64,000 bases of DNA from Myxococcota bacterium. GTDB lineage: Bacteria > Myxococcota_C > UBA6777. Numbering within the stretch: position 1 is the stretch's first letter; the number at the start of each line of letters is the position of its first letter. The notes under the pieces were generated by a model. It had not been told where the DNA came from. It searched no databases and worked only from the letters and a program-made list of their open reading frames with translations. The DNA lies in NCBI GenBank assembly GCA_023150835.1, contig JAKLKB010000041.1, forward strand, positions 1 to 64,000, read 5' to 3'. Position numbers and translations under genes: made by a program. This document shows, piece after piece, positions 9,616-63,717 of the stretch.

Positions 9616-12600
9616 ATGCGATATCTTGTTTTCCGTTGGCCGCTTATCGGTCTGTTTCTGCTTGGCAGTCTGCTTGTCTTCGGCGAAGGCTGCGGAACAT
9701 CTGTCATGACCTGCCTCACCGACGAAGAATGCGGAGAAGGCTCCTTTTGCAATGCCAGCGCAGGAAGCTGTCAGAAAGAATGTACCAGCAGCGCCGATTG
9801 TCCAACCGACAAGACCTGTTTCTTGCGGCGCGGAAAGTGCCTTGGCGGAGACACCTGTGCCAACAAACCCGCCCGTCAAGCCTGCGTCAACGGTCACGTC
9901 CACACCATCGACGGTTGCGAATTTGTGGGCGATCGTCAGGCCGATTGCGGTCTCCAAGGCTGCCTCGATGGCAAGTGCTTACAAGTCCCTGTCGGTTGCG
10001 GCGACGGGATCTGCGATCCGACGCAAGAACACTGCCTCAACTGCCCCTTCGATTGTGCTTGTCCAAGCGGTGAACTGTGCGACACCACCACCTCCGCTTG
10101 CCTGACCTCCGCCAACTGCGGCGATGGAACCTGCGATCCCAACGAAAAAGAAACTTGCGCCACTTGCCCCATCGATTGCGCCTGCCCCGCAGGTCAGCGC
10201 TGTGATCGTAACCAACAGATCTGCGCCGCCTTTCCAAGCTGTGGCAACGGCTCCTGCGAACCCAACGAATCCGAAGATTGCAGCAACTGCCCCTTCGATT
10301 GTGCCTGTCCTCTCGGACAACGCTGCATCAACAACGCCTGCGCTCCCACCAACCCTTGCGGAGATGGCCAATGCTCCGCACAACAAGGCGAAAACTGCGA
10401 TACCTGCCCCAAAGACTGCGCTTGTCCTGCCGATCAGTCCTGTAAAGCCGGCGTCTGCAAGATCGATCAAACCAACACCGTGCGCTGCGGTGACCAAAAG
10501 TGCGACAAATCCGAGTCTTCCGCTTCTTGTTGTTCCGATTGTGGCTGCCCAAGCGGATACAAGTGCGAAAACAACGCTTGCCAGCCCGCACAAACCGCCC
10601 GATGTGGCAACGGTCGTTGTGAAGCCAGCGAAAATGCCCAAAACTGCTGTACGGACTGCGGCTGTCCAAGCGGCAACTTTTGCAACAACAACCGCTGTTG
10701 CTCTTGTATCGCCAACGAAGATCGCCGCTGCAACGGCGCACAGATCCAAGTCTGCAACGCAGACTGCACCGGTTGGACAACCGAACAAAATTGCTCAAGC
10801 ACCCAGACCTGCAAAAAAACCACTTCTGGCAACTTGGCCTGCGTCGATATCTGCACAAGCGATTGCACCACCGAAGGACAAAAGCGCTGTAACGGCGGAT
10901 ACGCCATCCAAACCTGCTCCCGTAGTAGCCAAGGCTGTCTCGTGTGGACCACCACACTTGGCTGCAAAACCAACGAATACTGCGAATCTGGCGCAACGAC
11001 CTGCAAAACCTCTGCTTGCACCAACCATAGCTGCCCCACCCTTGAAGCCACACGCTGCGACGTTCGCACCGTGCAAGAATGCCAAAATGATACAAGTGGT
11101 TGCCGTGTCTGGAAAACCACCAACTATTGCGCCCCCCCGCAAACGTGTTCCGATGGAAAATGTATCTACGACTGCGGCACTTCTCCTTGCAGCCTCGGTG
11201 CGCCCTACTGCTCGAACAACAACGTCGTCCAATGCGAAACCGACTCCAACGGCTGCCGCAAGCTCACCACCAAACAAACCTGTTCAGGCGGAAAGATCTG
11301 TAAAAATCCCACCACAGGCGTGGCTTATTGCGAGTGCAGCCACAAATGCACCACCGAAGGCGAAAAACAATGCAATACCAACATGCCCCAAGAATGTCGT
11401 AAAAATGCCTCGGGCTGCCGCGAATGGGTCAACCTCAACTATTGCGTCCCGCCCTACACCTGCTCCAAAGGGGCCTGTATCTACGGATGTAGCCACACTT
11501 GCGAACTCGGGCCGATCTACTGCTCCAACAACAACGTCTCCCAATGTGAAGCCGATACCAACGGCTGTCGCCGCGTCGTGACGAAACAAGCCTGCGTCGG
11601 TGGAAAAGTCTGCAAAAGCCCCACCACAGGCGTCGCTTATTGTGAGTGCAGCCACAAATGCACCACCGAAGGCGAAAAACAATGCAGCACCAACCAAACC
11701 CAAGAGTGCCGCAAAAACGCCGAAGGCTGCCGTGAATGGGTCAACGGTACGTACTGCACCCCCCCCAATACTTGCTCCAAAGGCGCTTGCGTCTACAACT
11801 GCACCCACACCTGCGAACTCGGCCCTGTGTATTGCTCGAACGGAAACGTTGTCCAATGCGAGGCCGACAGCAACGGCTGCCGCCGCGTCGTGACGAAACA
11901 AACTTGTTCGGGTGGAAAAGTCTGCAAAAGCCCCACCACAGGCGTGGCTTATTGCGAGTGCAGTCACAAATGCCCGACCGAAGGCGAAAAACAATGCAGC
12001 ACCAACCAAACCCAAGAATGTCGCAAAAACGCCGACGGCTGCCGTGAATGGGTCAATGGCACATACTGCACCCCTCCCAATACTTGTTCAGGCGGCGTAT
12101 GCGTCTACAACTGCAACCACACTTGCAGCCTTGGCCCCATACAATGCTCGAACAACAACGTCGTCCAATGCGAGGCCGACAGCAACGGCTGCCGTCGCAT
12201 GGTCACCAAAGACACCTGTGGCTCCCGTCAAACCTGCAAAAGCCCCACCACAGGCGTGGCTTATTGCGAGTGTAGTCACGGATGCTCTAGCGCTGGAGCC
12301 AAACAGTGCAGCACCAATCAAGCCCAAGAATGCAAAACGGACGGCGATGGCTGCCGCTATTGGGCCAATACGACCTACTGCACCCCTCCCAATATCTGCT
12401 CAGGCGGAAACTGCGTCTACAACTGCAACCACACTTGCAATGCCGGCCCTGTATACTGCTCGAACAACAACGTCGTCCAATGCGAGGCCGACAGCAATGG
12501 CTGCCGCCGCGTGGTCACCAAAGACACCTGCGGCTCCCGTCAAACCTGCAAAAGCCCCACCACAGGCGTGGCTTATTGTGAGTGTAGTCACGGATGCTCT

Positions 12601-13200
12601 AGCGCTGGAGCCAAACAGTGCAGCACCAACCAAACCCAAGAATGTAAAACGGATGGCGATGGCTGCCGTTATTGGGCCAACGGTACCTACTGCACGCCCC
12701 CCTATACCTGTTCGGGCGGAAACTGCGTCTATAGCTGCAACCATACCTGTTCTCCCGCTGGAGCCAAACAATGCAGCACCAACCAAACCCAAGAATGCCG
12801 CACCGACGGCAACGGCTGCCGCTCTTGGGTCAACGGTACCTACTGCACGCCCCCCTATACCTGTTCGGGCGGAAACTGCGTCTATAGCTGCAACCATCAA
12901 TGCAGCAGCGGTACAAAGCAGTGCAGCGGAAACACTCCCCAAGAATGCCGCACCGACGGCAACGGCTGTCGTTATTGGGCCAACCTTACGGCGTGCGGAA
13001 CAGGTTACACCTGTTCGGGCGGAAACTGTGTGTCGAGTTGCAATCACGCTTGCTCATACAACGGGCAAAAACAATGCGCAGGTTCGATACCCGCCTACAT
13101 CCAAGAATGCAGAACCAACTCAAGCGGATGCCGCTACTGGTACACCACCACCACCTGCCCACCACCCCAGCGCTGCGTCAATCTCGGATGCACCTATTGA
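9616..13200 (+). CDS. Large exported Cys-rich repeat protein (1194 residues)
   Basis: It starts with a hydrophobic signal ending in VFGEGC, so a lipoprotein is likely, though the lipobox is imperfect. Residues about 130-360 contain six units of a CGDGxCDPxExCxxCPxDCxCP pattern with about ten Cys each. Residues about 400-1190 contain alternating units: one around KQCSTNQTQECRKNADGC and one around YCSNNNVVQCEADSNGC, together a 104-residue (312-bp) supermodule repeated several times and nearly identical in DNA. Each half-unit has an even number of Cys, suggesting disulfide-stapled modules in an extended surface rod. No enzyme motif is seen. The gene has a GAGG site before the ATG at 9616. Similar Cys-rich surface proteins are typical of Myxococcota. 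Confidence 0.9.
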   Translation: MRYLVFRWPLIGLFLLGSLLVFGEGCGTSVMTCLTDEECGEGSFCNASAGSCQKECTSSADCPTDKTCFLRRGKCLGGDTCANKPARQACVNGHVHTIDGCEFVGDRQADCGLQGCLDGKCLQVPVGCGDGICDPTQEHCLNCPFDCACPSGELCDTTTSACLTSANCGDGTCDPNEKETCATCPIDCACPAGQRCDRNQQICAAFPSCGNGSCEPNESEDCSNCPFDCACPLGQRCINNACAPTNPCGDGQCSAQQGENCDTCPKDCACPADQSCKAGVCKIDQTNTVRCGDQKCDKSESSASCCSDCGCPSGYKCENNACQPAQTARCGNGRCEASENAQNCCTDCGCPSGNFCNNNRCCSCIANEDRRCNGAQIQVCNADCTGWTTEQNCSSTQTCKKTTSGNLACVDICTSDCTTEGQKRCNGGYAIQTCSRSSQGCLVWTTTLGCKTNEYCESGATTCKTSACTNHSCPTLEATRCDVRTVQECQNDTSGCRVWKTTNYCAPPQTCSDGKCIYDCGTSPCSLGAPYCSNNNVVQCETDSNGCRKLTTKQTCSGGKICKNPTTGVAYCECSHKCTTEGEKQCNTNMPQECRKNASGCREWVNLNYCVPPYTCSKGACIYGCSHTCELGPIYCSNNNVSQCEADTNGCRRVVTKQACVGGKVCKSPTTGVAYCECSHKCTTEGEKQCSTNQTQECRKNAEGCREWVNGTYCTPPNTCSKGACVYNCTHTCELGPVYCSNGNVVQCEADSNGCRRVVTKQTCSGGKVCKSPTTGVAYCECSHKCPTEGEKQCSTNQTQECRKNADGCREWVNGTYCTPPNTCSGGVCVYNCNHTCSLGPIQCSNNNVVQCEADSNGCRRMVTKDTCGSRQTCKSPTTGVAYCECSHGCSSAGAKQCSTNQAQECKTDGDGCRYWANTTYCTPPNICSGGNCVYNCNHTCNAGPVYCSNNNVVQCEADSNGCRRVVTKDTCGSRQTCKSPTTGVAYCECSHGCSSAGAKQCSTNQTQECKTDGDGCRYWANGTYCTPPYTCSGGNCVYSCNHTCSPAGAKQCSTNQTQECRTDGNGCRSWVNGTYCTPPYTCSGGNCVYSCNHQCSSGTKQCSGNTPQECRTDGNGCRYWANLTACGTGYTCSGGNCVSSCNHACSYNGQKQCAGSIPAYIQECRTNSSGCRYWYTTTTCPPPQRCVNLGCTY
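11337..12900 (+). repeat. 312-bp coding tandem repeats of the Cys-rich protein
   Basis: Equivalent points recur at about 11340, 11652 and 11964, giving an exact 312-bp period. Later units are partly contracted, with the YCSNNN half missing. Nucleotide identity is very high between adjacent units, which implies recent expansion and a likelihood of length polymorphism or assembly collapse. Confidence 0.85.
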
Positions 13201-13215
13201 TCGAACAACGGCTTA

Positions 13216-13410
13216 GCGGGTGTCCTACTCGGCCTTGTCTTTGCGCTTGGCGGCTCGATCCAGTAGCTCAAGGATATCTTCGGTGATATCCAAGGCGGGA
13301 TCGAGATACAACGGCGGGTGTCCTACTCGGCCTTGTCTTTGCGCTTGGCGGCTCGATCCAGTAGCTCAAGGATATCTTCGGTGATATCCAAGGCGGGATC
13401 GAGATACAAC
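13216..13410. repeat. 98-bp tandem duplication covering the 3' end of the OmpH-like gene
   Basis: The segment starting GCGGGTGTCCTACTCGGCCT at 13216 is repeated from 13314 with no difference seen over about 97 bp. It includes the last ~85 bp of the OmpH-like coding sequence, its stop and about 9 bp beyond. The copy at 13216-13312 is therefore a non-coding remnant downstream of the intact gene end. Confidence 0.9.
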
Positions 13411-13727
13411 GTACGATCTTTGTGCAACACAGCCTTTGCACCGCGCTGGATCGCGATCGTTGAAGCAAAGAAAGCGGCTTTTTCGAGGACTTCGTGACGG
13501 AGCAGTTGGCGCTGTTCTTCGAGTTCTTGCATGACGAGACGCAAAGCCGCTTCGATCTCTTCCAAAGCGGCGGTGTAGAGGGTGCCTTGGAGGGTTGCGA
13601 TCTCTTGGCGTCGTTGCTCGGCAGCTTCTTTGTGTTTTTTCCAGCGCTTCTCCAAAGCCTCCGAAGCAAGGCGCGCTGCAAGGCTCTCCCCCAAGATCCT
13701 CGATACATCGACAAACAAGATATCCAT
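13323..13727 (-). CDS. OmpH/Skp-like coiled-coil protein, last gene of the ExbB/TolR-like operon
   Basis: A 134-residue protein with an almost continuous charged helix (about residues 20-85, Glu/Gln/Arg-rich), framed by an N-terminal MDILFVDVSRILGESLA and a C-terminal segment with DPALDITEDILELLD. This layout, a beta strand with 'D' and 'ES' signatures, a long coiled coil, and a C-terminal 'DIT..V/I' motif, matches OmpH/Skp chaperones. It lacks a signal peptide, so it would act in the cytoplasm or be exported unusually. It starts 11 bp after the upstream coiled-coil gene with a purine-rich GGAGAGGG site. Its last ~85 bp are duplicated just downstream. A structural partner of the long coiled-coil protein is likely by context. 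Confidence 0.75.
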   Translation of the reverse strand: MDILFVDVSRILGESLAARLASEALEKRWKKHKEAAEQRRQEIATLQGTLYTAALEEIEAALRLVMQELEEQRQLLRHEVLEKAAFFASTIAIQRGAKAVLHKDRTLYLDPALDITEDILELLDRAAKRKDKAE

Positions 13728-13738
13728 CGCCCTCTCCG

Positions 13739-15445
13739 CTAAAGCTGCCAGATCACCCGCATCTCGCTGTAATACCGTTGATGTTCATCTTCGAGTCCTT
13801 GGGTCACAGCCAACGAACACTGCGCATCAAAGACGATCACATAGATCACTTCTGTGCTGCTTGAAACTTCGGTGGGCAGGCGTTTTTCAAGACGAGCAAA
13901 AGCCCGAAAACCGGGTTCTAATTTTCCGCGATACACCAAGCGGTCGGTCTTCGGCGCACGTCGTGAAAGCTCGATCGGCTCGCCAAACGGCGTCATCCTC
14001 AACGCATGCAAGCGTTTGTAGCCGACAACTCGATCATTTTTGATGTACACAAAGATCACAGGGAAAAAGATCTGCATCCCTTTGACGATGCCGATCTGTT
14101 CGCGAGCTTCGTGATGACCGAAGATCTTGTAGGTCGACAACGCCGCTTGCATCTCTTTTTGGCGATCTTCGAGCCGCTTGCGTTCGGTGAGCAGTTGGGT
14201 GCGTTGCGCCTCGCCTGTTTGAAGCTGTTGTTTGAGTTGCGTAGCTTGAGCGTCGCTGCGGACTTTGTGGATCTCGTAGCGTTCGACCAAAAGACGCAGG
14301 CGCTTTTGATCTTCTCGCAGCGCAGCGATCTCTTTGTTGCGTTGTGCGGCAAGGGCTTCTGCTTGAAAACGAGCGCGTTGCGTTTCTTCAAAGCGGCTTT
14401 GCAAGGTCTTTTGTTGCTGTTGTTGCTTTTCTTCTTCACGCTGCGCGACAGAGACCTGTGTGCGAAGCGATTCATTCTGACGCTGAAGCACAGCCACCTG
14501 CTCACGCAAAGCCGCAAGCTCTTGTTGCAAACGTTGCAGCGCCCGCATCGAGGCTTGTTGTGATTTGTCGTGCTGAGACAGCCGATCTTCGAGCAAGATC
14601 GACTTGGCAAGGCGCGCTTCAAGCGCTTTGATCTGCGCTCGCAAACGCACGTTTTCTTGTTCCAATACGCCCTGCGCAAGGGCCATCTTGCGTTGACGAT
14701 CTTGTTCTTTGGCTTGTTGGGTGCGTAGCGCTTGGAGTTCGCTTTGTGCGACTTGTAGCGCCGCTTCTTTGCTTGCCAACTGCTCCTTCAAACGCGCCAC
14801 TTGAACAGCCATCTCTCGGGCTTCCATGGTCGCGATGCGAAAGCGTGCGTCAGCGGCACGAAGCTGATCTTCAAGGCGTTTGCGTTCTTCATCGGCACGC
14901 GAGAGTTTTGCGGCGAGTGCTCTCGCTTCTTCGCGTTCCTTGCGGTGCATCTCTTCAAGAACGCGATGCTGTTCTTGCAGACGCGCAAGCTGTTGTTTGG
15001 TTTGACGGAGTTCCCGCTCCAACCGAGCGCGCAGACGTTCGAGGCGTTGCTTGTCCTGCCCCAACGCATCGCGCTGCTTTTGCGTCACCTGTAAGTCCCG
15101 CTCCATCGCGTCGATCTTGCTTTGCGTAGCTTCTCGCAAACGTTGCATCTCGGCTTGTTGCGATCGCAAACGCTCCATCGTCTGCTGTAGGCGCGACACC
15201 AACACTTGTAAGCTCCGCATATCCGCATCGATCTGTGTTCGATCTTTGGTGAGGCGACTGGCTTTTTGATGTTGTTGATCGCGCTGTTGGCGCAAAGCAC
15301 GGATCTGTTGTTGCGCGCTCGATATCTGCCGCTGGTGCGCCTTTTGGGCCGCGTCGTCTTTTTTTCGCAAGTTGATCGAAAAAGCAAACAGCAAGATCAA
15401 GATGATATCCACCAACGGCAACAAATCGAGTCTGGATCGACGCAT
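13739..15445 (-). CDS. TolR/ExbD-like membrane anchor fused to a ~350-residue coiled coil
   Basis: The N-terminus (RLDLLPLVDIILILLFAFSI) is a single membrane helix of ExbD/TolR/MotB type with the conserved aspartate at residue 13, the proton-carrying position in those families. Residues about 30-440 are an uninterrupted Gln/Glu/Arg/Leu coiled coil, followed by a globular ~125-residue C-terminal domain with beta-rich segments (GMQIFFPVIFVYIKNDRVVG). Normal TolR/ExbD proteins are about 140 residues, so this 568-residue form is highly unusual. It starts 2 bp after the ExbB-like gene, indicating translational coupling. By topology the coiled coil would lie in the periplasm. I infer a stator-like subunit transmitting force from the channel; direct function is unknown. 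Confidence 0.85.
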   Translation of the reverse strand: MRRSRLDLLPLVDIILILLFAFSINLRKKDDAAQKAHQRQISSAQQQIRALRQQRDQQHQKASRLTKDRTQIDADMRSLQVLVSRLQQTMERLRSQQAEMQRLREATQSKIDAMERDLQVTQKQRDALGQDKQRLERLRARLERELRQTKQQLARLQEQHRVLEEMHRKEREEARALAAKLSRADEERKRLEDQLRAADARFRIATMEAREMAVQVARLKEQLASKEAALQVAQSELQALRTQQAKEQDRQRKMALAQGVLEQENVRLRAQIKALEARLAKSILLEDRLSQHDKSQQASMRALQRLQQELAALREQVAVLQRQNESLRTQVSVAQREEEKQQQQQKTLQSRFEETQRARFQAEALAAQRNKEIAALREDQKRLRLLVERYEIHKVRSDAQATQLKQQLQTGEAQRTQLLTERKRLEDRQKEMQAALSTYKIFGHHEAREQIGIVKGMQIFFPVIFVYIKNDRVVGYKRLHALRMTPFGEPIELSRRAPKTDRLVYRGKLEPGFRAFARLEKRLPTEVSSSTEVIYVIVFDAQCSLAVTQGLEDEHQRYYSEMRVIWQL

Positions 15446-15447
15446 GG

Positions 15448-16233
15448 TTATCCTCTCGATCCGCTCGATGCATCGGGCGATACAGCAGGCGTCGTTTCGC
15501 TCGATGGCTTCGACGATACAGAGGACGTCGTTTCGCTCGATGGCTTCGACGATACAGAGGACGTCGTTTCGCTCGATGGCTTCGGCGATACAGCAGGCGT
15601 CGTTTCGACCGATGGCTTCGGCGATACAGCGGACGTGACTTTGCTCGGTGGCTTCGGCGATACAGCAGATATCAAAGGAACAGGATCAGCGTCTTCGTCG
15701 GTAGCATGGGGTCGTGTGATCACATGAACCAACCGCGACACCACCTCACGATTTTGAAGGAGTTCCAAGACGTTATAAAACGATTCTTCGGCGGGGTTTT
15801 CGATCCACCAACGACCGAACAACGCTCCGATCAAGCCCATAATCGTGGTGTTCAGCGCAAACCCCAGCGTTCGTGTATCGAAGTCAAAAAATAGCGCGGC
15901 CAGCAGCAAACTGACGACTGTTCCGAGCAGACCGATCTGCGGCATCATCTCGATATACGCAGCCACCCGTTGTCGGGCGGATTGCGCACTTGCACGCCAA
16001 CGCGAGATCATATCGTGACGAGAGAGCGCATCACTGGCCTTCCAACCGCTTGCTTGCAGATAGGCCAAGGGCTCAAGATACGCTTCTTCGGGCGCTTTTT
16101 GATAACTGCGACGCAAGATCTCTTCTTGTTCTCGCAGTTCGCGTCGGATACCCCGAGCCTTCAAAAACAAGAAGCCGATCCACAGCAACCAAAACACACT
16201 CAACACGACGGTGACAAAGTCTTCGACCCACAT
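15448..16233 (-). CDS. ExbB/TolQ/MotA-like proton-channel protein
   Basis: 261 residues with three membrane segments: about 6-24, 95-116 (MPQIGLLGTVVSLLLAALFF, the characteristic GLLGTV segment) and 123-142 (LGFALNTTIMGLIGALFGRW). The large loop (25-92) is cytoplasmic, as in ExbB/TolQ. These proteins form the pentameric channel of proton-driven motors with ExbD/TolR. Residues 189-261 are six 12-residue AVSPKPSSETTP-type repeats, a disordered tail absent from ordinary ExbB. The gene follows the 176-residue TolR-like gene by 63 bp and precedes the coiled-coil gene by 2 bp. Which ion is used and what work is done are not visible. Confidence 0.85.
   Translation of the reverse strand: MWVEDFVTVVLSVFWLLWIGFLFLKARGIRRELREQEEILRRSYQKAPEEAYLEPLAYLQASGWKASDALSRHDMISRWRASAQSARQRVAAYIEMMPQIGLLGTVVSLLLAALFFDFDTRTLGFALNTTIMGLIGALFGRWWIENPAEESFYNVLELLQNREVVSRLVHVITRPHATDEDADPVPLISAVSPKPPSKVTSAVSPKPSVETTPAVSPKPSSETTSSVSSKPSSETTSSVSSKPSSETTPAVSPDASSGSRG
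15451..15669 (-). repeat. 36-bp coding repeats (12-residue Ser/Pro/Lys units) in the ExbB-like tail
   Basis: Six units of the form (A/S)VS(P/S)KPSSETT(S/P). The central DNA copies are nearly identical, so the array is probably length-variable. The composition predicts a disordered cytoplasmic tail. Confidence 0.8.
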
Positions 16234-16296
16234 CCGAACGCGCCCTTTCTATTGCTCGCACCTCGCCCATTCCCCAAGCACCACCTATCGAACGCC

Positions 16297-16827
16297 TTAA
16301 AATTCGTTGGCGACACTAAACGGAATGTTTTTTTGGGAGAGCGCTCGTTTGACATCCTGTACCCATTGGGCCTTGGCATCGCCCTGAACGCGCAACACCA
16401 GATCGCGATCTTCGCGCTGCGCCTTTTCTCCCGCCTCCACCAACTGCGCCACCGTCAATGTTTCTGTTTCGATCTGCCCTTGCGCGGACACTTTGTGGAT
16501 CGAACGGCTGCGCAACAGCACTTCGTAGCGAAGGCGTACACGCACCACAGGAGGCGTGGGAGTTGCCGCTTTTGCGCTTGTCCCGCCTTGGGGCGATGCC
16601 ACCGAAGCGCCCGTCCCACCTTGCTTTGAGGCTCCTGACGATCCAGTCGATGCGGTCTGATCTTGGCGAACGTCGAGCGCGGGAGATCGGCGATCTGAAA
16701 CAGAGGACATCTGCTGCGGATGTGTGGGCTTTTTCGGAGAAAACACCATCGTAAAATAACCGCCCACACCAACCACCAGCACCGAGATCCCACCGACCAA
16801 CGTCGTCATCATCTTACTATCCGCCAT
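16297..16827 (-). CDS. TolR/ExbD-like single-pass membrane protein, first gene of the motor-like operon
   Basis: 176 residues: one N-terminal membrane helix (about 8-28), a Ser/Gly/Pro/Gln-rich linker (30-90) and a C-terminal domain (about 95-176) ending in LVLRVQGDAKAQWVQDVKRA, which resembles the periplasmic swapped domain of ExbD/TolR ('v.iraD....v..v...l...gi'). Unlike true ExbD/TolR, the membrane helix has no aspartate, so it should not carry protons itself; that residue is supplied by the long partner two genes downstream. A GAGGAG site precedes the ATG. It heads the operon, suggesting one ExbB-like protein with two non-identical TolR-like partners. Confidence 0.75.
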   Translation of the reverse strand: MADSKMMTTLVGGISVLVVGVGGYFTMVFSPKKPTHPQQMSSVSDRRSPALDVRQDQTASTGSSGASKQGGTGASVASPQGGTSAKAATPTPPVVRVRLRYEVLLRSRSIHKVSAQGQIETETLTVAQLVEAGEKAQREDRDLVLRVQGDAKAQWVQDVKRALSQKNIPFSVANEF

Positions 16828-60802: not shown

Positions 60803-63655
60803 TTAGATCTGCTGGCCCCGTGCGCCCCATGCGTAGCGGATGGAAAAGCGAGGTTCAAGGCGAAGCGCGGGGGGGCCTTCGACAAGAGCCGCGTTGGGGT
60901 CGCTGGTATTGGCGCGATACGCACCTTTAAAAAACGTCATCCGAAAGCCGATCACAAACTCCAAACCACCGACGACGGTAAAAGCGATCTTGTTGTCCCA
61001 GTTGAGTTCGTGCAAGGCAAATGTCGCTTGGTTGGAGCGCCCTCCCACGATGAAGGTCAGGAGATAGTTGGCCGTCGACTCATAATTGATCGGCGTGTCG
61101 GCGACTTTGAATAGCGGGATGGTCGTCAGTTCCAAATCGACGGAAGCTCCGATGGTATGGTCGAGGTTGACAAGGGGTTGTTTGCCTTGTTGAAGCACCA
61201 ATTCAAGCGCCCATTGCTTGCGCCATGCAAAGCCGATCTTGAGTGTCAGCGGATCAAGCAGCTTAAAGCTCAAGCCCGCTTTGGCGCGGGTTTCAAAGTG
61301 CCGAAAAAGCTCGTTGTTGTCGGTGAGGAATTCTTTTTCCGTCAGGTTCGGTTTACTGCCGCGTGTAAACTCGGTCTCAAGCTGCAATTCGACGAATGGA
61401 CTGGTGTGATACCACTTGGTGTCGTTGGGAAAAAGCGCGCTAAAATAACGGAAGTGGTATTCGGTGCGCAGTTGGATGCGGTCGGTGTTTTCTTGGAAGA
61501 TCTGTGGAAACTGGTTGGTATTTTCTTTGTACTGGGTGTTGGTATCGGCCTCGTATTCGAGGCTGACTTTGGTGATCCACAGATGGATGCGGGTGTCGAG
61601 TTGGAATTCGAGCTTGAGGCTGCCACTGATCTGGAGCTTTTGAAAAAATCCCCCGTTAAACGTGTCTTTTTGGTTGTACACCGTCGAACTGTTGATCGGG
61701 CCGATAAAGATCGAGGTAAAGTTGAGGTTGTTTTCATTGCGAAAAGACCAAGCGACTTCGTCTTCGAGCATGACGATGCGGTGCTTGTAGGGGATCTCGA
61801 CATTTCCGTCTTTGTCGAGCTTTTTGACGGCGCGTTTGCCCAAAAAAGTTTTGCGGTACGGGATAAACAGGCTTTTGTCGAAGTGTTCGTCGATCATAAA
61901 GCGCAAACGCAAGGGCCAACCACCCGGTCCGATGGGGATGGAGAGTTTGTGTTTTCCTTTTTTGGGTTGTTCGATCCAACCTTCGGCCCCTTCGGCAATA
62001 AAGCGAATGGTACTCACCGAATAGAGGGCGTCTTCGGCGATCGGGCGTCCGTTGATCTTGCCGTCCGCGATCCCGGCAAACAGCAGTTTGATGCGTTTGT
62101 CTTTGGGGTCGTTGTATTTTTCGGCGATCTCTTTCAGTTGGGAGCCTTTGAGACGCAGCGTCACGATCGGCTCGTTGAAGGGCATGGCGCGAAAAAGATC
62201 GTCGCGTGTGATGTAGCCTTTGATCGGAAAGGACAGCTCTTTGACAGCCTTTTGGTTGATCAAGGCCACTTCGGTTTTGGTGAGATAGCGCATGGTGTCG
62301 AGTAGGTACGTCATGAATTGTTCGTGGGTCATGCCGTCCGCCTCGACCACACGGCCTTTTCCAAGAGGGGTTCCCCACCGGTCGCAGTATTTTTTTTCCC
62401 AAGCCAACAGTTGATCACGCAGGCTTTGATCGAACTTTTCGGGTTCCAACGGAAACCATTTGATCTGGAAGTAAGTTTGAACGACTTTGCCTTCGCTGTT
62501 GCGGCGCAACTTGATCCGTGCGCTGCCTAGGTGGGTTCCGTAGCGATAGCCGCCCATGACTTGGATGTTGCCCGTTTTTGGATCCGCAACGGTGATACTC
62601 ATCGGGACACCATCAGCCCGTAGTTCGTTCGAGATCATCAAGTCGATGCCTTGGACTTCTTTGAGATACTCTCGAACCACTGTGCCGCTTGAGTTGCGTC
62701 CTTCGAGGTGCGAGAGAGCGATCACAAAGTCGACTTTTTCTTCTTCCCGCAGCTTTTTAACGATCTCTTGGCCGACTTCTTTGGGATCTTTGAAAGAGAT
62801 ACCTTTGACGCGGTGTTGAGAGACTTGTTTTTCCATCTCGTTGGGGACGACATGAAACACGCCGATCTTGAAGCCTGCACGCTCAAGGATAAAATAAGGG
62901 CTTTTCTTTTTTCCGTCATGGTTGGTGTACTTGGCGATGGGATGTTCAGGATCTTTGGCAACAAGGTTGGCAACAGAAAAGCGCAAGCCCTGCTTGTGCG
63001 CATGTTTGAGAAAGGGGCGCAAGCGCTTGGTTGAGACGGAAAACTCGTGGTTTCCGACCCCGATCAGATCGTAGCGAAATCGCTTCATGACCTCGACAAG
63101 AAAACGAGACCCCTCTTTCTTTTTTGTGTCTTCGAGCAAAAAGCGCGAAGCAAGCGAAGTGGCGAGGTTGTCGCCCGTATTGAAGAGCAAGGCATCGGGT
63201 TCGCCGCGTTCGAGAGCCATCTTGCGGTGTTGCTCGACCAAATGCAGAAGGTTGGAAAAGTCCTTGTCTACGGGTTCATAGTTAAAATCTTTGACATTGG
63301 GGCGATTGCAACGAAACTCACGGACTTGGCCGTAGAGATCGTTGGTAAAGAGGATCGTGAGGGCTGTTTTCACACCCGGGACGTACTTGGGTTTGGGGCT
63401 GTTGGGGGCAGGCGTTGTGGTGGGTTGAGAGGTCGCAGAAGCAGTGGGTTGGGAGGTTGAAGAAGGATCGGGCTGAGAGACCGAAGGTTCGCTGGATGGG
63501 GAGTTTGAAGGCGTGGTCGGTTGAGAGGTCGATGGTTCGTTGTTTTTGGGGGGCGGATTGTCGGGGGTTTGAGCATAAGAAACCAAAAAAGGGGCAGAGA
63601 AAAAGAAGCAAGCAAGCGAGAGCGAGAAAGCGAGAGAAGTCCGTTGGTGCAACAT
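60803..63655 (-). CDS. UshA/5'-nucleotidase-like metallophosphoesterase fused to a putative beta-barrel
   Basis: 950 residues. The signal peptide ends near VSYAQ, followed by a Ser/Pro/Thr/Gln-rich stretch with SQP repeats. Residues about 95-560 match UshA-like two-domain phosphoesterases: TILFTNDLYGQ, LLFNTGDNLATS, GVGNHEFS, ALSHLEG, GGYRYGTHLGSA, and a C-terminal-domain segment AMPFNEPIVTLRLKGSQL. Metal ligands are changed: DxH of NDxHG is DLY, and GHSH is replaced by SNEL. Residues about 650-950 have alternating hydrophobic strands with aromatic ends (TEYHFRYF, FVELQLETEF, KIGFAWRKQWALELVL, RFSIRYAWGARGQQI), suggesting a 12-or-so-strand outer-membrane barrel. ATG 63655 has an AAAGGGA site and starts the signal peptide directly. 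Confidence 0.82.
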   Translation of the reverse strand: MLHQRTSLAFSLSLACFFFSAPFLVSYAQTPDNPPPKNNEPSTSQPTTPSNSPSSEPSVSQPDPSSTSQPTASATSQPTTTPAPNSPKPKYVPGVKTALTILFTNDLYGQVREFRCNRPNVKDFNYEPVDKDFSNLLHLVEQHRKMALERGEPDALLFNTGDNLATSLASRFLLEDTKKKEGSRFLVEVMKRFRYDLIGVGNHEFSVSTKRLRPFLKHAHKQGLRFSVANLVAKDPEHPIAKYTNHDGKKKSPYFILERAGFKIGVFHVVPNEMEKQVSQHRVKGISFKDPKEVGQEIVKKLREEEKVDFVIALSHLEGRNSSGTVVREYLKEVQGIDLMISNELRADGVPMSITVADPKTGNIQVMGGYRYGTHLGSARIKLRRNSEGKVVQTYFQIKWFPLEPEKFDQSLRDQLLAWEKKYCDRWGTPLGKGRVVEADGMTHEQFMTYLLDTMRYLTKTEVALINQKAVKELSFPIKGYITRDDLFRAMPFNEPIVTLRLKGSQLKEIAEKYNDPKDKRIKLLFAGIADGKINGRPIAEDALYSVSTIRFIAEGAEGWIEQPKKGKHKLSIPIGPGGWPLRLRFMIDEHFDKSLFIPYRKTFLGKRAVKKLDKDGNVEIPYKHRIVMLEDEVAWSFRNENNLNFTSIFIGPINSSTVYNQKDTFNGGFFQKLQISGSLKLEFQLDTRIHLWITKVSLEYEADTNTQYKENTNQFPQIFQENTDRIQLRTEYHFRYFSALFPNDTKWYHTSPFVELQLETEFTRGSKPNLTEKEFLTDNNELFRHFETRAKAGLSFKLLDPLTLKIGFAWRKQWALELVLQQGKQPLVNLDHTIGASVDLELTTIPLFKVADTPINYESTANYLLTFIVGGRSNQATFALHELNWDNKIAFTVVGGLEFVIGFRMTFFKGAYRANTSDPNAALVEGPPALRLEPRFSIRYAWGARGQQI

Positions 63656-63717
63656 CGCGATCCCTTTCTTTGGAGAGAAAAACAAGCATCGTTGGAGTGA
63701 TTCAAAGTTGTTGAATT

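Follow-up and report, generated by a model that had tools for sequence, protein, structure and literature searches.

What kind of machine, if any, is encoded by four tightly packed genes in the 64,000-nucleotide stretch of DNA analysed here (the window), which comes from a 7.56-Mb draft genome (G000, contig C196)? A sequence-only reading had proposed a new proton-driven machine composed of an ExbB-like channel, two TolR-like subunits and an OmpH-like protein. The tight packing was confirmed: four ORFs, here named P1 to P4, were found on the minus strand, separated by gaps of 63, 2 and 11 bp (Table 1). Five genomes from the phylum-level lineage of the window (G000 to G004), all belonging to one family, were compared. 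The public entries for the relatives are metagenome-assembled genomes labelled Myxococcota, Myxococcales or Deltaproteobacteria. In comparison with the sister species G001, P1, P2, P3 and P4 gave dN/dS ratios of 0.29, 0.15, 0.08 and 0.21, respectively, and all four are under purifying selection.

Table 1. Positions of P1 to P4 and their features in the window
Feature	Position	Strand	Description	Basis
P1	16297..16827	-	176 aa; TM helix without Asp, low-complexity linker and predicted TolR/ExbD-fold domain	
P1 TolR/ExbD-fold domain (predicted)	16300..16545	-	residues 95-176	AF2 model, VIA structure matches
P2	15448..16233	-	261 aa; channel subunit of the ExbB/TolQ family, with three TM helices and a tail of Ser/Pro/Thr repeats	
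P2 TM2-TM3 hairpin	15814..15936	-	GLLGTV (Thr105) and ALNTT (Thr129/130) conserved	
P2 C-terminal tail	15462..15668	-	coded by a 36-bp tandem repeat	
P3	13739..15445	-	568 aa; TM helix with Asp, then coiled coil and conserved C-terminal domain	
P3 Asp13 codon	15407..15409	-	aligns with the ExbD/TolR Asp that carries the proton; invariant (4/4)	
P3 coiled coil	14120..15355	-	residues 31-442; no Pro, 3.5-residue periodicity	
P3 C-terminal domain	13742..14119	-	126 aa; 48% identity between genera	
P4	13323..13727	-	134 aa; Skp/OmpH-like, without signal peptide; genus-specific neighbour	

The Pfam MotA_ExbB model scored P2 at 18.0 bits, under its curated cut-off of 22.9. A profile built from P2 homologues was compared using hhalign with one built from 11 unambiguous ExbB/TolQ proteins of the same phylum. 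The match scored 56 (Prob 94.8, pairwise E 5e-8), against 16 for the reversed query and 21 for the best of 60 column-shuffled queries. The best and sole match to the P2 profile outside the family, among 386 genomes, was a genuine TolQ (E 1.8e-5), the gene for which adjoins TolR- and TolA-like ORFs in a tolQ-tolR-tolA-like cluster. The TM helices of P2 comprise residues 6-24, 100-118 and 122-140, and the GLLGTV and ALxTT motifs, which include the pore threonines, are invariant among P2 homologues. Judged by profile comparison, P2 is a divergent three-TM ExbB/TolQ-family channel protein with a repeat tail, as had been proposed. The length of the tail varies even between sister species. The Thr-to-Thr spacing in P2 is 24-25 residues. 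That in Escherichia coli ExbB is about 33, and the shorter spacing in P2 counts against reading it as part of a motor. A broken P2 gene in G002, which would have been due to a frameshift, was ruled out, as the interruption is a scaffold gap of Ns.

Residues 5-24 of P3 align with the ExbD helix (Prob 84.5, score 31; column-shuffled controls scored at most 17), with Asp13 matched to the Asp of ExbD; Asp13 is present in all four homologues. The 412 residues from 31 to 442 contain no proline and have a hydrophobic period of 3.50 that is stronger than in 500 of 500 shuffles. The description of P3 as an Asp-bearing anchor on a coiled coil of roughly 400 residues held, and the coil has heptad periodicity. 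If it forms one continuous helix, the coil of the window is about 61 nm long. Coil regions of the homologues range from about 170 to 495 residues, corresponding to about 26 nm in G002 and about 74 nm in G004. For the shortest homologue, the period is 3.51 but the signal is not above that of every shuffle. Such a three-fold variation in length would be unexpected if the rod had a set span. As charges flank the TM helix of P3 at both ends, its orientation in the membrane was assigned from homology. Neither a His/SHLS motif of the TolA/TonB kind in the helix nor an OmpA domain in the protein was found. The C-terminal domain, conserved between genera, has no match in Pfam (including vWA) and no sequence match in the PDB. 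The model of this domain is of low confidence (pLDDT 51), and its matches, with Z of up to 5.5 to actin-like and other proteins and 3.6-4.1 to ExbD, are not interpretable.

P1 was the second protein described as TolR-like, and as lacking the membrane Asp. Its TM helix (residues 10-28) includes no acidic residue in any of the four homologues. The sequence profile comparison of P1 with ExbD is only suggestive, with Prob 2-3 and a score of 18 against at most 15 for shuffled queries, and aligned the C-terminal part alone, weakly. The AF2 model of the C-terminal domain has a pLDDT of about 90. When this model was used as a query, Foldseek ranked TolR (5by4) second, with an E-value of 3.7e-3, and VIA-align 2 ranked it top, with a Z of 9.6 and 2.5 Å over 80 residues. 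In the latter search, TolR was followed by four ExbD structures (Z 7.4-7.7), and ribosomal proteins reached 6.8. On its predicted fold, the C-terminal domain of P1 is a TolR/ExbD domain, and the earlier description of P1 agrees with these results.

The three genes P1, P2 and P3 were found in the same order in G001, a member of the window's genus, and in two representatives of a second genus, G002 and G004; between genera, the proteins share 31-38% identity. In the second genus, the trio adjoins a divergent FNR-like gene and a GlcD-like oxidase gene, and no equivalents of the PLP-enzyme and PP2C genes found upstream in the window are beside it. As the flanking genes differ, the linkage is specific to the P1-P2-P3 trio, and the neighbourhood is conserved across two genera. 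The module is carried by four genomes, two of which are sister species, and was not found in G003, which belongs to the same family. When GTDB r220 genomes were scanned with a pattern, three loci were obtained, each of them belonging to this lineage. With the TolQ match of P2 set aside, profiles of P1, P2 and the P3 C-terminal domain returned no convincing match outside the family in the 386 genomes. Weak matches to the P1 and P3 C-terminal profiles were inspected and are unrelated proteins, and a match in G044 was rejected as it falls within an MraY-like ORF. As far as searched, the P1-P2-P3 module appears to be confined to one rare family.

P4 matches Pfam OmpH over nearly its full length (E 3.3e-12; 47.2 bits, cut-off 32.4), and by this match it is a real Skp/OmpH-like protein. 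Unlike Skp/OmpH, with which it shares the OmpH domain, P4 has no signal peptide, and no hydrophobic segment was found in it. It begins MDILFVDVS with no in-frame start upstream, and P4 of the sister species has the same start and likewise lacks a signal peptide. The P4 gene was seen in the genus of the window only and was not found in the second genus. Because it lacks a signal peptide and is confined to one genus, P4 is probably not a core part. Thus, the sequence-only reading was right about the OmpH domain, but P4 falls outside the conserved module of the machine to which it had been assigned. The end of the P4 gene is included in a perfect 98-bp tandem duplication (window positions 13216-13411; 2.0 copies, 100% match) that copies the last 29 codons of P4 past the stop. 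This duplication is absent from the locus of the sister species (L009) and is either a very recent event or an assembly artefact. Convergent with the P4 gene is one for a predicted secreted protein of 1194 aa with many Cys-rich repeats (9616-13200). Further away, at 60803-63685, a 960-aa protein has a 5'-nucleotidase-like region followed by an apparently beta-rich C-terminal part that is possibly located in the outer membrane.

From the identities of the components, their conserved linkage, the Asp and Thr residues and the coil, together with the predicted fold of P1, we infer a machine. On balance, P1, P2 and P3 probably form an ion-driven motor of the 5:2 type, in which a dimer of P3 is both axle and trans-periplasmic rod and P1 is a separate accessory. 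MotAB, ExbBD and TolQR are 5:2 motors (PMC9389320), and by analogy with them a P2 pentamer would enclose the N-terminal helices of the P3 dimer in the inner membrane. Protons would pass via Asp13 of P3 and the threonine ring of P2 (Thr105 and Thr129/130), turning the P3 pair. With its helix continued by a two-stranded coil and then by a conserved head, P3 would serve as axle and transducer at once, combining the job of the TolR/ExbD helix with that of the TolA/TonB rod. The coil, at about 26-74 nm, would convey torque or pull to an outer partner, which the conserved C-terminal domain would bind at the wall or outer membrane. The TolR/ExbD-type domain of P1, held on its own Asp-less anchor, would most likely act as an accessory collar, a wall anchor or a regulator, and P4 would probably be incidental.

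A more specific form of this proposal is that a 5:2 axle extends directly into a drive shaft at most about 75 nm long, with the wall-contacting TolR domain carried by a separate, non-conducting protein. We put this forward tentatively, as a possibility that may well prove wrong. In ExbD, TolR and MotB, the rotor/transducer and the stationary anchor are one chain; here, if the drive shaft is real, they would be separate parts.

The main alternative to a P3 homodimer is a heterodimer of P1 and P3 inside the P2 pentamer (5:1:1), in which one pore helix carries the Asp, with P1 contributing the TolR domain of what would be a divided ExbD. The make-up of P1, a lone TM helix plus a domain with the predicted TolR/ExbD fold, is what such a partner would have, and P1 is encoded with P2 and P3 in every carrier. 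For AglQ and AglS, hetero- versus homodimerization was left open in PMC9389320. However, the Gly-rich, Asp-less helix of P1 is unlike the ExbD pore helix and gave no alignment to the ExbD TM, and the single long coiled-coil partner would be left without a dimer mate. We consider this arrangement unlikely. AglRQS, the motor of Myxococcus gliding, to which the locus had been likened, likewise combines a single TolQ-like channel with two TolR-like proteins. The analogy fails, as both AglQ and AglS have the Asp and P1 has none in any homologue; an Agl motor was thus ruled out. No Glt genes adjoin the module.

Less probable again is a TolQRA-like system, in which P2 would correspond to TolQ, P1 to TolR and P3 to a TolA-like rod standing beside the channel, with coupling of the Tol-Pal type. 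The same three elements are present, namely a channel, a TolR-fold protein (as predicted) and a TM-anchored helical rod with a C-terminal domain, the last being the plan of TolA itself. However, it is the rod, P3, and not the TolR-like P1 that carries the essential Asp. Unlike TolA, P3 has this proton-site Asp and lacks the His/SHLS motif described in PMC12204202. No solved TolA/TonB domain was matched by the sequence of the P3 C-terminal domain. The coil, of up to about 495 residues, exceeds the range reported for TolA domain II (110-335 residues; PMC12204202) in three of the four P3 proteins, a length that also counts against P3 as the rod of a 5:2 motor. With ExbBD and TolQR the module shares the channel family (P2), the Asp helix (P3) and, by prediction, the TolR/ExbD periplasmic fold (P1), but the Asp helix, which continues as a long coil, and the TolR-fold domain are on different proteins. 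A non-energised envelope scaffold of true ExbB/ExbD ancestry that has lost proton conduction would suit the strong divergence of P2, which lies under the Pfam cut-off, but is very improbable, as Asp13 and the threonines of the pore do not vary although overall identity is only 31-40%.

For the 5:2 motor with a P3 axle, the closest published concept to P2-P3 is the TPH-vWA force transducers, one of two families of vWA transducers in section 8 of PMC12204202 (Mol Biol Evol 2025). In this family, an Asp-bearing transpore helix is fused to vWA and encoded beside a lone TolQ-like gene, and is proposed to rotate within the pore; there is no tolR/exbD gene, and the vWA genes are mostly paired (PMC12204202). 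In both systems, a TolQ-like subunit accompanies a periplasmic transducer that is joined directly to an Asp helix of the ExbD/TolR type, and the gene layout is matched by P2 and P3, which are 2 bp apart. The module differs from these in the long coil of P3 (170-495 residues), in a C-terminal domain that has no Pfam vWA match and in the TolR domain split off onto an Asp-less protein, P1, encoded alongside. Because a TolQ-like pentamer with an Asp-helix transducer was published in 2025 (PMC12204202), the combination is a variant and not a wholly new kind. The claim of novelty survives in part: no description of this P1-P2-P3 combination was found in the open-licence literature searched, but the core idea had been published for TPH-vWA. 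Non-flagellar ion transporters are highly diverse, and some have very large periplasmic domains (PMC12505986).

ZorAB also combines a MotA/ExbB-family channel with a long coil. Unlike ZorAB, the coil in the module is on the Asp-helix (B-side) protein, P3, and is presumably periplasmic; there is no OmpA domain, and there are no Zorya effectors. PADLOC returned coil-driven hits only, and the neighbouring genes are unrelated to Zorya. Zorya was ruled out, as these hits stem from the coil and the coil belongs to the opposite subunit; the contrast with it that had been drawn earlier is borne out.

There is debate over how 5:2 motors use rotation to do work at the outer membrane. With an Asp helix that is continuous with a long coil, the module would offer a direct test of the rotating-shaft idea, as one could observe whether the rod turns or twists, and the splitting of the TolR domain onto P1 could show which part must stay fixed. 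P1-P2-P3 adds to the undescribed B-subunit architectures, of which 2025 surveys say more remain to be discovered.

Several other clusters with genes of these families were seen in the five genomes. A separate Agl-like locus in G000 (C134) includes one ExbB and two ExbD genes. In the Agl-like clusters L045 (G002:C625) and L049 (G004:C43), to which G000:C134 is related, the membrane Asp of one ExbD-like protein is replaced by Asn (PLMNIIML). Zorya-like loci, consisting of genes for a ZorA-like protein with a long tail and a ZorB-like protein with an OmpA domain and an ORF of about 500 aa, are present in the same family at L105 (G003:C11) and L106 (G004:C40). Four loci (L103, L104, L107 and L108) contain a further MotA_ExbB-family gene (328-572 aa) with no recognised Zorya effectors, followed in three of the four by a gene for a protein with an Asp helix, a coil and an OmpA-type domain; in L104 and L107, the MotA_ExbB-family gene is beside a threonine-synthase-like gene. 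Weak MotA_ExbB matches like those of these four loci were found in all five genomes of the lineage. G000:C87 and G000:C5, and their equivalents in G001, G003 and G004, contain two genes for ExbB-like proteins and one or two for ExbD-like proteins, with one of the ExbB proteins carrying a long N-terminal coil extension, and several further multi-part Exb systems are present.
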